Of a DNA stretch of 64,000 nt, positions 54,748-58,314 are shown one piece after another (within the stretch, counting starts at the first letter, position 1; each line of letters opens with the position of its first letter). This stretch comes from Actinophytocola xinjiangensis. GTDB taxonomy: Bacteria > Actinomycetota > Actinomycetes > Mycobacteriales > Pseudonocardiaceae. The notes under the pieces were generated by a model. That model was not told where the DNA came from, ran no database searches, and was given only the letters and a program-made list of their open reading frames with translations. Made by a program: the position numbers and the translations under genes. The stretch is from NCBI RefSeq assembly GCF_001921215.1, contig NZ_MSIF01000030.1:1-64000 (forward strand), written 5' to 3'.

Positions 54748-54893
54748 GAGGGTCACCCTGCCGGGGAAACCTGACAGCCGCTGGCCAGATTTATCGCGCA
54801 TCTCCCACTACCCTTCGTCACCCGGATGGGCCATTCGGGTAGACAACCGGCATGACCGTGATCCAGGGCTGACGTGGCCTTAATGTCAGGATC

Positions 54894-54918
54894 ACAGGCC
54901 GCGCGGAGTGCGGCCTGT
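54894..54918 (+). promoter_or_regulatory. leader hairpin before the MFS-GGDEF ORF
   Basis: Perfect 9-bp stem (54894-54902 with 54910-54918), seven-base loop, 24 bases before ATG 54943. Could be a leader structure in the mRNA. Nothing else distinctive is seen in 54748-54942. Confidence 0.4.
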
Positions 54919-54942
54919 TGGCGTCAGGAGCGAGGCGAACGG

Positions 54943-57900
54943 ATGGGTGGGGCTGGGTTTCGCGACGTGCTCGCGGTCCCCGAGTTCCGCGCGCTCTGGT
55001 CGGCGGAGGTCCTGTCGGTCGCCGGGGACCAGCTGGCCAGGGTCGGTTTGGCCGTCCTGGTCTTCTCCCAGACCGACTCCGCCGGGCTGACCGCGCTGAC
55101 CTACGCGCTGACGTTCCTTCCCGCTCTGCTCGGCGGGGTACTGCTCGGCGGACTGGCCGACCGGTTCCCCCGCCGCGAACTGATGGTCACCGTCGACCTG
55201 GCGCGCGCCGGCTGCGCCGGACTGATGGCGGTTCCCACCCTGCCCCTACCGGTGCTGATGGCGCTGGTGTTCCTGCTGACGCTCGGCGGGGCGCCGTTCA
55301 AGGCCGCGCAGCAGGCACTGCTGCCGACGATCCTGTCCGGCCCTCGGTTCGTCGCCGGGCTCGCGCTGCGCACGGTCACCAACCAGTCGGCGCAGGTCGC
55401 CGGCTTCCTCGGCGGCGGCGCCCTGGTGGCGATGATGGAGCCGCAGCTCGCGCTCGGGCTCAACGCGGTGACGTTCCTTGTCGCGGCGCTCGTGCTGACG
55501 ACCGGCGTGGCACACCGGCCGGCCGCACGCGGCAACGGTACCGAACGGTCGGTCGGCGCGGCGAGGTTGATCTGGCACGACCCGCGACTGCGCGCGCTGA
55601 CCGCACTGTCCTGGCTGGCCGGGCTGTTCATCGTCCCGGAGGCGCTGGCCGCGCCCTACGCCAGGGACCTCGGCGCCCCGGTCGCGGCCGTCGGCCTGCT
55701 GATGGCGGCGATCCCGATCGGCAGCATCGCCGGCGGCTGGCTGGTCGCCCGCGTCCGCGAGCACCGGCGCGACCAGGCGATCGGCCCCTTCGCACTCGCC
55801 GCCGGGGTACCGCTGGCGCTGTGCCTGTTCGGACCGCCGTTGCCGCTGGTCACCGCACTGTGGGCGGTGTCCGGCGTGTTCGCGACGGCGTACCTGGTGT
55901 TGGCCCAGGCCGCGTTCGTGCTCGCCGTGCCGGACCGGCACCGGGGGGCCGCGTCCGGGTTGGCCGGCGCCGGGGTGCTGTCCTCCCAGGGAGTCGCGGT
56001 CCTCGGTGCCGGCATACTCGCTGACATGACCAGTCCGGTACTCGCCGTCACCGTCGGTGGCGTGGCGGGTATCGCGCTGAGCGCGCTGATCGGCGCGCCG
56101 TGGCTTCGCGCCCGCACCCGGGTCGACGACCCGGACGGGCGCGAGACCGACGGCGCTGATCACGGCGCTGATCACGATGCTGATGTCACTGTCACCAGTC
56201 CCAGCTACGCGACATCTCGCACACCACCTCTCCACGAACAAACCCCCAACCCACGTACGGACCCCACCGAGGTCACCAGTCCCAACTCCGCAACCCGAAC
56301 ACCTCCTCAACCAGCGACGACTTCCGAACCACGCACGCTCACCAGTCCCAACTCCGCACCGGACACACCTCCCTCACCAGCCACAACCACCGGACAACCC
56401 GCGCTCACCAGTCCCAGCTACGCATCGAGCGCACCTCCCTCCACGTCGACCAACTCCGACGAACCAGCACTCACCAGTCCCAACTCCGCACCGCGCACAC
56501 CTCCCCACGCCAGAAAAGACACCGACAACCACGGACTCACCAGTCCCAGCTACGCACCACGAACACCTCCCTCACCAGCGACAACCTCCGACGAACCACC
56601 GCTCACCAATCCCAGCTACGCGACATCACGCACACCGCCCTTCCGTGGGATCACCGCACGACTTCGGCCACGCACCGCGCTCACCAGTCCCAACTCGCCA
56701 CCGCGAACACCTCCTCTCCCCACACCGGTCGCACACGCCAGGGACGACAATCAACAGTCCGAAGTCACCAGTCCCAGCTACGCACCACGAACACCTCCCT
56801 CACCAGCGAGAACCACCGAGAAACCACCGCTCACCAATCCCAGCTCGCCACCGCGCACACCTCCTACCGCCGAGTACGGCAACGGACAGATGAGTCAACA
56901 CACAGAGGTCACCAGTCCCAACTCGCCACCACGAACACCTCCTCCCACGGAGCTTTCCGCCGGGCTACCACCGGGAGGGACCGACCAGTCGCAGGCCCCC
57001 CGATCGCGCACCCCAGCATCCCTTTCCACTGATCAGCGGTCCAGGTTGCCGACCCGCTGGTCAATGTGGCGGGAACCGGCGAGGGTGATCGTCCTCCTGC
57101 TGTTCGTGGAAGCCGCCGCTGTGGGGCTGACGGTGTTCCAGGCCCTGCGCGCGTCGATCGACGTCGCCGATCTGACCACGCTCGCGGTGATCGTCTGCCT
57201 CGGCCTCGCCATGGGCGAGATGACCAGGCACGTCGAGCGGGTACGCCGGCGCTTCAACGACACGCCGCACGTGAACCTGACCTCGGTGTGGACCTTCTCC
57301 GCGATCCTGATGCTGCCGGCGGTGCTGGTGCCGATGGTGACCTGCGCGCTCTACCTGCACCTGTTCTGGCGCAGCTGGTACCGGGTGCGCAGCGTGCGCG
57401 CCTACCGCCTGGTCTTCACCGCCTCGACGGTGGTGCTCGCCGCCTACAGCGCCTCGGCCATCCGCGACCTGACCACCCCGGCGGACAAGGCACTGTGGGG
57501 AAATCCGGCCGTGGTCGCCGCCGTCGCGCTCGCGATCGTGGCGTACTCGCTGGTCAACCTGGGTCTGGTGGCCACCGCGATCACCCTGCACGAGCGGAAG
57601 TTCATGCTGCGGCGGGCGTTGGGCACCGGCAAGGAAGCGGCGCTGGAGTACGGCACCATCTGCCTGGGCGCGATCACCGCGCTGCTGATCGACATCCACC
57701 CCGCGTGGGCGCTGCTGATCATCCCGGTGCTGCTGGTGCTGCACCGGTCGGTGCTGATGCGCCAACTGGAGGAGGCGGCCTCCACCGACCAGAAGACCGG
57801 CCTGGCCAACGCCACCGCCTGGACGAACATGGCCTCGGCCGAGGTCCGGCGCGCGGAACGCGACGACACCCAGGTCGGCGTGCTGATGGTCGACCTCGAC

Positions 57901-58314
57901 CACTTCAAGTCGGTCAACGACACCCACGGCCACCTGGTCGGCGACCGGGTCCTGCAGGCGGTGGCGGACACGCTGACCGGCTGCGCGCGGCGCTACGACG
58001 TGGTCGGCCGCTGGGGCGGCGAGGAGTTCGTGGTGCTCTGCCCGGAGGTCACACCGGACACGCTGCGCGGGATCGGCGAGCGCATCTGCGAGCGGGTCCG
58101 TGAGCTGCGGGTTCCGGTCGCCGAGCCGGGCGGTGAGGTGGTGTGCGGGCTGACCGTGTCGATCGGGCTCGCGGTCTACCCGAAGTTCGGGCCGGACCTG
58201 CAGGACGTGCTGCTGGCCGCCGACGACGCGCTGTTCGTCGCCAAGGACTCGGGGCGCGACCAGGTGCAGATGATCGTGGCGGCGGTCGGGGACCTCAACG
58301 GCTATCGGGGCTGA
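54943..58314 (+). CDS. MFS transporter in frame with GGDEF protein (apparent fusion)
   Basis: 1123 codons without a stop from ATG 54943 (GAGG eight bases upstream). Residues ~1-390 are a 12-helix MFS transporter (FRALWSAEVLSVAGDQLARVG start, LADRFPRREL loop), like multidrug or siderophore exporters. Residues ~405-700 are a T-poor, Pro/Thr/Ser-rich stretch encoded opposite the micro-ORF array, with repeats such as LTSPSYAPRTPP. From ~707 on there are six to seven membrane helices and a GGDEF domain with VDLDHFKSVNDTHGH and active-site GGEEF. In most actinomycetes the two would be separate proteins. Any ribosome starting at 54943 must translate the linker, yet a separate start for the second part at ATG 57064 is possible. 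Ends 20 bp inside the convergent HxlR gene. Confidence 0.7.
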   Translation: MGGAGFRDVLAVPEFRALWSAEVLSVAGDQLARVGLAVLVFSQTDSAGLTALTYALTFLPALLGGVLLGGLADRFPRRELMVTVDLARAGCAGLMAVPTLPLPVLMALVFLLTLGGAPFKAAQQALLPTILSGPRFVAGLALRTVTNQSAQVAGFLGGGALVAMMEPQLALGLNAVTFLVAALVLTTGVAHRPAARGNGTERSVGAARLIWHDPRLRALTALSWLAGLFIVPEALAAPYARDLGAPVAAVGLLMAAIPIGSIAGGWLVARVREHRRDQAIGPFALAAGVPLALCLFGPPLPLVTALWAVSGVFATAYLVLAQAAFVLAVPDRHRGAASGLAGAGVLSSQGVAVLGAGILADMTSPVLAVTVGGVAGIALSALIGAPWLRARTRVDDPDGRETDGADHGADHDADVTVTSPSYATSRTPPLHEQTPNPRTDPTEVTSPNSATRTPPQPATTSEPRTLTSPNSAPDTPPSPATTTGQPALTSPSYASSAPPSTSTNSDEPALTSPNSAPRTPPHARKDTDNHGLTSPSYAPRTPPSPATTSDEPPLTNPSYATSRTPPFRGITARLRPRTALTSPNSPPRTPPLPTPVAHARDDNQQSEVTSPSYAPRTPPSPARTTEKPPLTNPSSPPRTPPTAEYGNGQMSQHTEVTSPNSPPRTPPPTELSAGLPPGGTDQSQAPRSRTPASLSTDQRSRLPTRWSMWREPARVIVLLLFVEAAAVGLTVFQALRASIDVADLTTLAVIVCLGLAMGEMTRHVERVRRRFNDTPHVNLTSVWTFSAILMLPAVLVPMVTCALYLHLFWRSWYRVRSVRAYRLVFTASTVVLAAYSASAIRDLTTPADKALWGNPAVVAAVALAIVAYSLVNLGLVATAITLHERKFMLRRALGTGKEAALEYGTICLGAITALLIDIHPAWALLIIPVLLVLHRSVLMRQLEEAASTDQKTGLANATAWTNMASAEVRRAERDDTQVGVLMVDLDHFKSVNDTHGHLVGDRVLQAVADTLTGCARRYDVVGRWGGEEFVVLCPEVTPDTLRGIGERICERVRELRVPVAEPGGEVVCGLTVSIGLAVYPKFGPDLQDVLLAADDALFVAKDSGRDQVQMIVAAVGDLNGYRG
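56192..56215 (-). CDS. micro-ORF 1 (MSRSWDW)
   Basis: ATG start, seven residues, TGA. Codons for Ser-Trp-Asp-Trp are AGC TGG GAC TGG. The SD-like sequence is the imperfect GGTGG at 56224-56228, eight bases before the start. One of two units with an extra Ser codon (TCG); both have an imperfect SD. Last unit in minus-strand order. Confidence 0.4.
   Translation of the reverse strand: MSRSWDW
56273..56293 (-). CDS. micro-ORF 2 (MRSWDW)
   Basis: TTG start, the only TTG in the array. SD GGAGG at 56302-56306, eight-base spacer. Arg is CGG, Ser is AGT, Asp is GAC. Confidence 0.45.
   Translation of the reverse strand: MRSWDW
56339..56359 (-). CDS. micro-ORF 3 (MRSWDW)
   Basis: GTG start. SD GGAGG at 56368-56372, eight-base spacer. 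Codons CGG, AGT, TGG, GAC, TGG, TGA. Confidence 0.45.
   Translation of the reverse strand: MRSWDW
56405..56425 (-). CDS. micro-ORF 4 (MRSWDW)
   Basis: ATG start. SD GGAGG at 56434-56438, eight-base spacer. Codons CGT, AGC, TGG, GAC, TGG, TGA. The best-formed unit: perfect SD and ATG. Confidence 0.5.
   Translation of the reverse strand: MRSWDW
56471..56491 (-). CDS. micro-ORF 5 (MRSWDW)
   Basis: GTG start. SD GGAGG at 56500-56504, eight-base spacer. Codons CGG, AGT, TGG, GAC, TGG, TGA. Confidence 0.45.
   Translation of the reverse strand: MRSWDW
56537..56557 (-). CDS. micro-ORF 6 (MRSWDW)
   Basis: GTG start. SD GGAGG at 56566-56570, eight-base spacer. Codons CGT, AGC, TGG, GAC, TGG, TGA. 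Identical in core to unit 9. Confidence 0.45.
   Translation of the reverse strand: MRSWDW
56603..56626 (-). CDS. micro-ORF 7 (MSRSWDW)
   Basis: ATG start, extra TCG Ser codon. SD-like GGCGG at 56635-56639, eight-base spacer. Asp codon is GAT, silent here but Ser to Asn in the plus-strand frame. Confidence 0.4.
   Translation of the reverse strand: MSRSWDW
56681..56701 (-). CDS. micro-ORF 8 (MASWDW)
   Basis: GTG start. SD GGAGG at 56710-56714, eight-base spacer. Ala (GCG) replaces Arg; Ser is AGT. Confidence 0.45.
   Translation of the reverse strand: MASWDW
56765..56785 (-). CDS. micro-ORF 9 (MRSWDW)
   Basis: GTG start. SD GGAGG at 56794-56798, eight-base spacer. Codons CGT, AGC, TGG, GAC, TGG, TGA. 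Confidence 0.45.
   Translation of the reverse strand: MRSWDW
56831..56851 (-). CDS. micro-ORF 10 (MASWDW)
   Basis: GTG start. SD GGAGG at 56860-56864, eight-base spacer. Ala is GCG, Ser AGC, Asp GAT. An in-frame TAG lies just before the SD, so here a longer upstream-extended reading is excluded. Confidence 0.45.
   Translation of the reverse strand: MASWDW
56909..56929 (-). CDS. micro-ORF 11 (MASWDW)
   Basis: GTG start. SD GGAGG at 56938-56942, inside GGGAGGAGG, eight-base spacer. Ala is GCG, Ser AGT, Asp GAC. First unit in minus-strand order; a promoter would have to lie in about 56945-57060 or beyond. Confidence 0.45.
   Translation of the reverse strand: MASWDW
57064..58314 (+). CDS. membrane GGDEF protein as a possible independent product
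   Basis: 416 codons from ATG 57064, in frame with the ORF starting at 54943. The product begins MWREPARVIVLLLFVEAAA and has the size and layout of stand-alone actinomycete diguanylate cyclases: N-terminal membrane helices and a C-terminal GGDEF domain with intact GGEEF, for synthesis of cyclic di-GMP. No good ribosome site precedes this ATG (AGG is 17 bases away). Independent translation would need internal initiation; otherwise the domain is the C-terminal part of the fusion. Confidence 0.45.
   Translation: MWREPARVIVLLLFVEAAAVGLTVFQALRASIDVADLTTLAVIVCLGLAMGEMTRHVERVRRRFNDTPHVNLTSVWTFSAILMLPAVLVPMVTCALYLHLFWRSWYRVRSVRAYRLVFTASTVVLAAYSASAIRDLTTPADKALWGNPAVVAAVALAIVAYSLVNLGLVATAITLHERKFMLRRALGTGKEAALEYGTICLGAITALLIDIHPAWALLIIPVLLVLHRSVLMRQLEEAASTDQKTGLANATAWTNMASAEVRRAERDDTQVGVLMVDLDHFKSVNDTHGHLVGDRVLQAVADTLTGCARRYDVVGRWGGEEFVVLCPEVTPDTLRGIGERICERVRELRVPVAEPGGEVVCGLTVSIGLAVYPKFGPDLQDVLLAADDALFVAKDSGRDQVQMIVAAVGDLNGYRG

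Follow-up and report, generated by a model that had tools for sequence, protein, structure and literature searches.

What is encoded by a row of eleven short units, each with its own SD sequence, start codon and stop, that lies antisense to a long membrane protein gene? The question is raised by positions 56192–56942 of the DNA analysed here (hereafter 'the window'), a stretch of 64,000 nucleotides from contig NZ_MSIF01000030.1 of Actinophytocola xinjiangensis. A sequence-only reading had placed the units on the minus strand and offered two explanations for them: repeated microgenes that produce the same tiny peptide, or a chain of initiation–termination sites that acts on ribosomes. Every detail of its description proved correct (counts, spacer, start codons, peptides and stop). 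What this local description overlooked were the partner genes, the wide distribution of such units and their spacing by multiples of 3, and it is mainly to these that we turn in what follows.

The array and the gene opposite it

All eleven units share a single layout, namely an SD, an eight-base spacer from the SD core to the start codon (11/11 units), the start codon, the codons for (S)[R/A]SWDW and a TGA stop. Nine units have GGAGG as their SD core; the unit at 56192 has GGTGG and the one at 56603 has GGCGG. Start codons are GTG (seven units), ATG (three) and TTG (one), and the encoded peptides are MRSWDW (six), MASWDW (three) and MSRSWDW (two). The core AGYTGGGAYTGGTGA has 11 matches in the window against 0.24 expected, and 11 was reached by no shuffle. 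In the complete 9.5 Mb genome it likewise has 11 matches, all of them in the array, and the reversed-pattern controls have 0. Pairwise comparison of the units gives 48 differences in the SWDW-stop core, and read in the microgene frame every one of them is silent. Unit spacing is a multiple of 3 throughout the array.

The plus strand carries an open frame of 1146 amino acids (54874–58314), in which an MFS portion is followed by a Thr/Ser/Pro linker, a membrane domain and a GGDEF domain. The array lies within the linker. The features of both strands are:

54874..56148, plus strand: MFS transporter portion of the fused frame, the proposed exporter (Pfam MFS_1 aa 43–298, MFS_3 aa 35–405; homologues adjoin microgenes at most loci)
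56149..57060, plus strand: linker of the MFS–GGDEF frame with TSPxSxAxRTPP repeats, antisense to the array (open frame; third-position G+C collapse)
57064..57786, plus strand: N-terminal membrane domain of the cyclase, about seven helices, the proposed sensor (no Pfam match; predicted structure)
57778..58311, plus strand: GGDEF domain, diguanylate cyclase, RRYD-VVGRW-GGEEF (GGEEF and RxxD; PF00990 aa 969–1130, 3.7e-41; fold Z about 20)
56909..56929, minus strand: microgene 1, MASWDW, GTG start (SD GGAGG at 56938–56942)
56831..56851, minus strand: microgene 2, MASWDW, GTG start, Asp encoded by GAT
56765..56785, minus strand: microgene 3, MRSWDW, GTG start
56681..56701, minus strand: microgene 4, MASWDW, GTG start
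56603..56626, minus strand: microgene 5, MSRSWDW, ATG start, SD core GGCGG
56537..56557, minus strand: microgene 6, MRSWDW, GTG start
56471..56491, minus strand: microgene 7, MRSWDW, GTG start
56405..56425, minus strand: microgene 8, MRSWDW, ATG start
56339..56359, minus strand: microgene 9, MRSWDW, GTG start
56273..56293, minus strand: microgene 10, MRSWDW, TTG start
56192..56215, minus strand: microgene 11, MSRSWDW, ATG start, SD core GGTGG

A separate 12-bp tandem repeat, ACGGCGCTGATC (2.9 copies, window positions 56150–56184), adjoins the last unit.

Selection on the microgene frame

Units from many loci allow the coding question to be put more broadly. Gathered by nucleotide similarity alone, blind to translation, 188 units were compared, and 179 of them have intact ORFs. 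Their single-base codon changes are synonymous in 56 cases and non-synonymous in 27, a few of the latter being off-register matches, while 25.7 ± 4.1 synonymous changes are expected. By codon position the changes divide 12/11/60, which places 60 of 83 at the third position. Start codons can be exchanged over the collected units (ATG 139, GTG 37, TTG 4), stops are mostly TGA with a single TAG and a single TAA, and the SD-to-start distance clusters at 6–10 bases. From these comparisons, the microgenes are almost certainly real and selected as coding sequence.

The first of the two earlier explanations, repeated microgenes for one tiny peptide, is thereby strongly supported (synonymous excess, start/stop swaps, locus-specific peptides). 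The chain acting on ribosomes gains nothing, since a conserved, locus-specific peptide is not predicted by it. It is also very improbable that the units are DNA binding sites (iterons) or a structured RNA element, as their tandem arrangement near a divergent promoter region could suggest: variation sits at third codon positions, the sequence is wholly different between loci while the ORF format stays constant, a covariance-model search of 54–59 kb against Rfam gave no match up to E 1, and unit RNA is less folded than its shuffles (mean z +0.48 over 124 units). The RNA element was rejected on the last two points (Rfam negative, no structure).

The plus strand tells the other half of the story. 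Third-codon-position G+C of the fused frame drops from about 0.9 to 0.59 over the array. The same core differences that are silent in the microgenes are replacements in the plus frame (Ser/Asn, Ser/Asn), and the plus codons neighbouring the core vary Ser/Tyr and Leu/Val. The window, A. gossypii, A. algeriensis, A. oryzae and an Actinophytocola sp. (MAG) all combine an open fused frame with units spaced by multiples of 3; because of this spacing, the plus frame seems to be still kept in most Actinophytocola. Yet in A. xanthii (L057, G005:C144) the plus frame shifts between units 2 and 3 while all three microgenes are intact. On sequence grounds, the array DNA is therefore dual-coding in Actinophytocola, with the microgenes as its constant side. 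Decay of the microgenes with survival of the plus-strand repeat had been named beforehand as the pattern that would count against them; the reverse is seen.

A selected linker repeat of the MFS–GGDEF fusion, with the microgenes as its by-product, would suit the multiple-of-3 spacing and open frame of the window and four Actinophytocola relatives, but it is rejected as scarcely credible: the fused frame is broken in A. xanthii, the core differences are synonymous in the microgene frame only, MFS and GGDEF are separate genes in Kibdelosporangium, and units in other genera are spaced 59–79 nt apart without regard to 3, opposite no such protein repeat.

Microgenes in relatives and other genera

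The same place in five named Actinophytocola relatives holds 2–6 units ending in SWDW or NKDW. At this position A. algeriensis, A. oryzae and A. xanthii have different units (MTNKDW, MMNKDW, MNKDW) with near-perfect SDs. A paralogous MFS–GGDEF gene in the window's own genome is accompanied by MMGKDW, and in Kibdelosporangium MRGKDW lies between separate MFS and GGDEF genes on the opposite strand. A locus of this Kibdelosporangium type (MFS–MRGKDW–GGDEF), its unit matching that of genome G217, also appears under Rhodococcus rhodnii NRRL B-16535 (L085, JOAA01000032.1), a record that may be mislabelled or contaminated.

More widely, genes of 5–8 codons lie antisense and divergent upstream of membrane GGDEF genes in the Pseudonocardiaceae and in a second actinobacterial family (f21), often in arrays of 2–19. 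Most membrane-GGDEF genes of the Pseudonocardiaceae have a divergent micro-ORF 120–650 nt upstream, often arrayed (MCSRDN/MRSRDN in seven copies, MSKDL-type in 19, MRNRAW in eight, MSNRDF in four, MSNRDN-type in 12 and MRDRGN in three). Arrays of the second family encode MRDNTWT, MRDTTWS, MRDNNWN and MRANSWD, and the order MFS–antisense array–GGDEF recurs among its retrieved loci. Peptides vary between loci and scarcely within one array. Cassettes of one genome can also carry different peptides, as in G227 (MRNRDW, MSNRDN, MRNRDC and MSKDL). Two assemblies appear to be broken inside arrays (G380, at the end of C12 and start of C10; G599, at the end of C16 and start of C29), so that copy numbers are lower bounds.

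Two further observations concern the DNA around the microgenes. Conserved blocks in the intergenic DNA between divergent microgene and cyclase starts (L162, L163, L150 and L167, and L196, L199, L203 and L206), e.g. TCAGTCAAACTG..TCACCACGACCCCC and GGCACATAGTAGCTGAA..GACAATGAGTGCACA, resemble common promoter or operator elements. At L161:9900–9993 (minus strand) two consecutive micro-ORFs encode unlike peptides, MRNRDC with a TGA stop and MSRDQ with a TAA stop; they lie upstream of a same-strand AfsR/SARP-like regulator and diverge from a solitary MFS gene of the subfamily discussed below.

Linkage to membrane cyclases

How closely are the microgenes tied to cyclase genes? Arrays, counted as at least two like-ending SD micro-ORFs upstream and antisense, occur at 38 of 74 cyclase sites, at least three units are present at 27 of the 74 and the maximum is 19, figures of prevalence that are biased by the partial choice of cyclase loci through pattern searches. 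Controls gave 0/74 on the sense strand, 0/44 downstream and 1/495 at other genes on each strand. A whole-genome pattern scan of the Pseudonocardiaceae matched 29 of 150 genomes with 0 in reversed controls, and of the 27 loci examined, 25 have the match beside a membrane cyclase. The corresponding scan of the second family gave 65 matches in 13 of 22 genomes and 0 in controls, nearly all at cyclase loci that a class-wide protein search had listed. This protein search, which used no micro-ORF pattern, yielded the same picture as the pattern-chosen loci, and just 44 of the 247 genomes in the class had the membrane cyclase family. In the all-genome scan several matches (e.g. Duganella, Bacteroidales) look like chance, and a recognisable microgene is absent at some cyclases (L179, L184, L185, L191 and L216).

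The partner proteins

The second recurrent partner is an MFS of one subfamily: 60 of 82 cyclase sites have one no more than 3.5 kb away (53 upstream on the same strand), and the other 22 have none of that subfamily in this range. Microgenes are also found, in either orientation, next to MFS copies that have no cyclase beside them. Comparison of neighbours over the loci found no gene except MFS/GGDEF common to most neighbourhoods. Exporter and cyclase are likewise fused at L151 and L156, which belong to other genera, and form two genes in Kibdelosporangium and others.

The GG[DE]EF motif is kept in 66 of 67 cyclase homologues, and both it and the RxxD site (I-site motif) in 61 of 67. Matches of a full-length structure search were filled by the GGDEF domain, and the membrane domain was folded alone. 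Its top 14 PDB matches are all ECF S-components (Z 8.4–11.8, the next unrelated match 6.8), for a model of pLDDT 73.6 built with 10 sequences and on a scale where Z of about 10–12 is possible by chance in helical bundles. The domain is predicted to fold like these S-components, which bind small ligands from outside. When the peptide ending is placed on the sensor-domain tree, it changes 26 times, compared with 46.6 under shuffling, where the lowest value of 200 was 41, an agreement that could be simple common descent.

Similar micro-ORFs accompany another class of membrane protein. In Kribbella pratensis (L081:2055–2092, minus strand, MFDDWDW) and K. monticola (L089:6474–6511, minus strand, MADYWDW) a membrane HD-GYP (HD_5) gene is preceded on its own strand, at a distance of 13–19 nt, by a single SD micro-ORF. 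In a similar place, related HD-GYP genes of family f14 have MREENWKWG, and one of f9 has MALAHWRWD. Microgenes may be tied to c-di-GMP breakdown too.

A proposed peptide signal and its alternatives

We think it probable, by a modest measure, that the microgenes are dosage-amplified genes for a tiny peptide signal that leaves the cell through the MFS and is perceived by the cyclase. Computed support covers coding selection, the linkage to cyclase and MFS, the peptide type following the sensor tree and the cyclase motifs; transcription, translation, export, binding and the direction of the effect are what we infer. The module would have three parts: the microgenes for the peptide, the MFS as its exporter, and a membrane diguanylate cyclase with a ligand-binding N-terminal sensor. 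Microgene mRNA would be transcribed divergently from the cyclase gene. Ribosomes would initiate at every SD and release peptide at every stop, and the array would thus work as a row of independent translated micro-cistrons that yields many copies of one peptide of 6–7 residues. The MFS would carry this peptide out of the cell, a step that is a guess. Outside, the peptide would bind the S-component-like membrane domain of its partner cyclase and alter c-di-GMP synthesis, and through it growth or differentiation in these developing actinomycetes. Arrays would provide a higher peptide dosage, and unlike cassettes within one genome, with their unlike peptides, would form separate channels. Against this reading stand the formyl-Met start of the peptides and their want of an export signal, the 22 of 82 cyclase sites that have no nearby MFS of the subfamily, and the cyclases with no recognisable microgene.

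The peptide might instead act inside the cell, unexported, and attach to the cyclase or the MFS on the cytoplasmic side in the manner of a very small regulatory subunit. Such a role would fit the missing export signal and the microgenes found with a cyclase alone or an MFS alone. On the other hand, the recurrent MFS partner, the S-component-like predicted sensor fold and the locus-specific peptides suggest an external ligand, and we regard intracellular action as unlikely.

We are similarly doubtful that the microgenes are minimal RiPP precursors whose peptide is modified by an enzyme encoded elsewhere to give an MFS-exported signal or natural product. Precursor genes of five residues do exist in the biarylitides (PMC13417212), and some of the motifs found here are aromatic–x–aromatic (WDW). 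Like the biarylitide gene BytA, the microgenes are SD-preceded actinomycete genes of 5–7 codons overlooked by annotation, and a BytA-type precursor of about five codons has its counterpart in these SD-preceded ORFs of 5–8 codons. Unlike BytA, which has a P450, the microgenes have none at 49–64 kb of the window, as the sequence-only reading had noted of the adjacent genes, and elsewhere no conserved neighbour except MFS/GGDEF. No conserved modifying enzyme stands in the neighbourhoods or at 49–64 kb of the window, which leaves a P450-type RiPP with a clustered enzyme unsupported. The BytA-type cross-link spacing of two aromatic/His residues is matched by WDW but not by NRDN, NRDS, SKDL, NTWT and most others, and the aromatic pair is missing from most peptides (NRDN, SKDL, NTWT). 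The microgenes also differ from BytA in forming tandem arrays of separate cistrons and in their partners, a membrane diguanylate cyclase and an MFS.

A third alternative dispenses with the peptides, in that translation of the antisense micro-ORFs, or antisense RNA, would tune MFS and cyclase expression in cis. In its favour, the array runs opposite the fused gene, and its place in the genera seen is the divergent promoter region. Still, a conserved peptide with synonymous changes and a distinct peptide per cassette are both unpredicted by such an action, unit RNA is unstructured and the gene downstream on the microgene strand is inconstant (MFS, XerD-like, transcriptional regulator, antisense DNA), which makes action in cis quite unlikely. 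The lack of a constant downstream gene also leads us to reject the related reading as a leader peptide.

Comparison with known systems

If the microgenes do encode exported signals, how do they compare with peptide pheromones and cyclases already described? The RRNPP-type oligopeptide pheromones of Gram-positive bacteria (Phr, PapR) arise by cleavage of exported precursors of greater length, and their receptors are TPR proteins of the cytoplasm. Like them, the microgene products are peptides of 5–8 residues that differ between paralogous systems and are paired with a partner protein (their signal role being proposed). In contrast to them, the gene encodes the final peptide only, with the stop directly after 5–8 codons and no longer precursor with an export signal, and it is a membrane GGDEF enzyme that we propose as receptor. 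No TPR Pfam match was found in the genes at 49–64 kb of the window, and the conserved neighbour elsewhere is MFS/GGDEF. The yeast alpha-factor also raises dosage by repeating a short peptide, there inside one polyprotein that is cut by proteases; each copy here instead has its own ribosome-binding site, start and stop.

On the receptor side, the Streptomyces membrane GGDEF/EAL proteins CdgC and RmdB have membrane helices followed by GGDEF, and their input signal is unknown (PMC6205966). The present family shares this order of helices and GGDEF domain, but it has neither PAS nor EAL, and has an S-component-like predicted membrane domain and microgenes. Literature searches with peptide strings and for peptide–c-di-GMP links, both over open-licence papers, returned nothing relevant and no description of the module.

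Significance

The inputs of membrane diguanylate cyclases are mostly unknown, and the microgenes name, letter for letter, a candidate ligand for dozens of them. A long-open question about cyclase signals could in this way become testable with synthetic peptides. In Streptomyces, c-di-GMP governs sporulation and antibiotic production. Genes of 5–8 codons are shorter than annotation usually admits, yet they can form arrays and be conserved from one family to another, with the result that peptide signalling in sequenced genomes is probably undercounted. The chances seem to us evenly balanced that in Actinobacteria tandem microgenes of 5–8 codons form a widespread, wholly unannotated class of dosage-amplified sources of peptide pheromones that undergo no processing, each with a dedicated membrane diguanylate cyclase as its direct reader, which would give a genome several private peptide-to-c-di-GMP channels.
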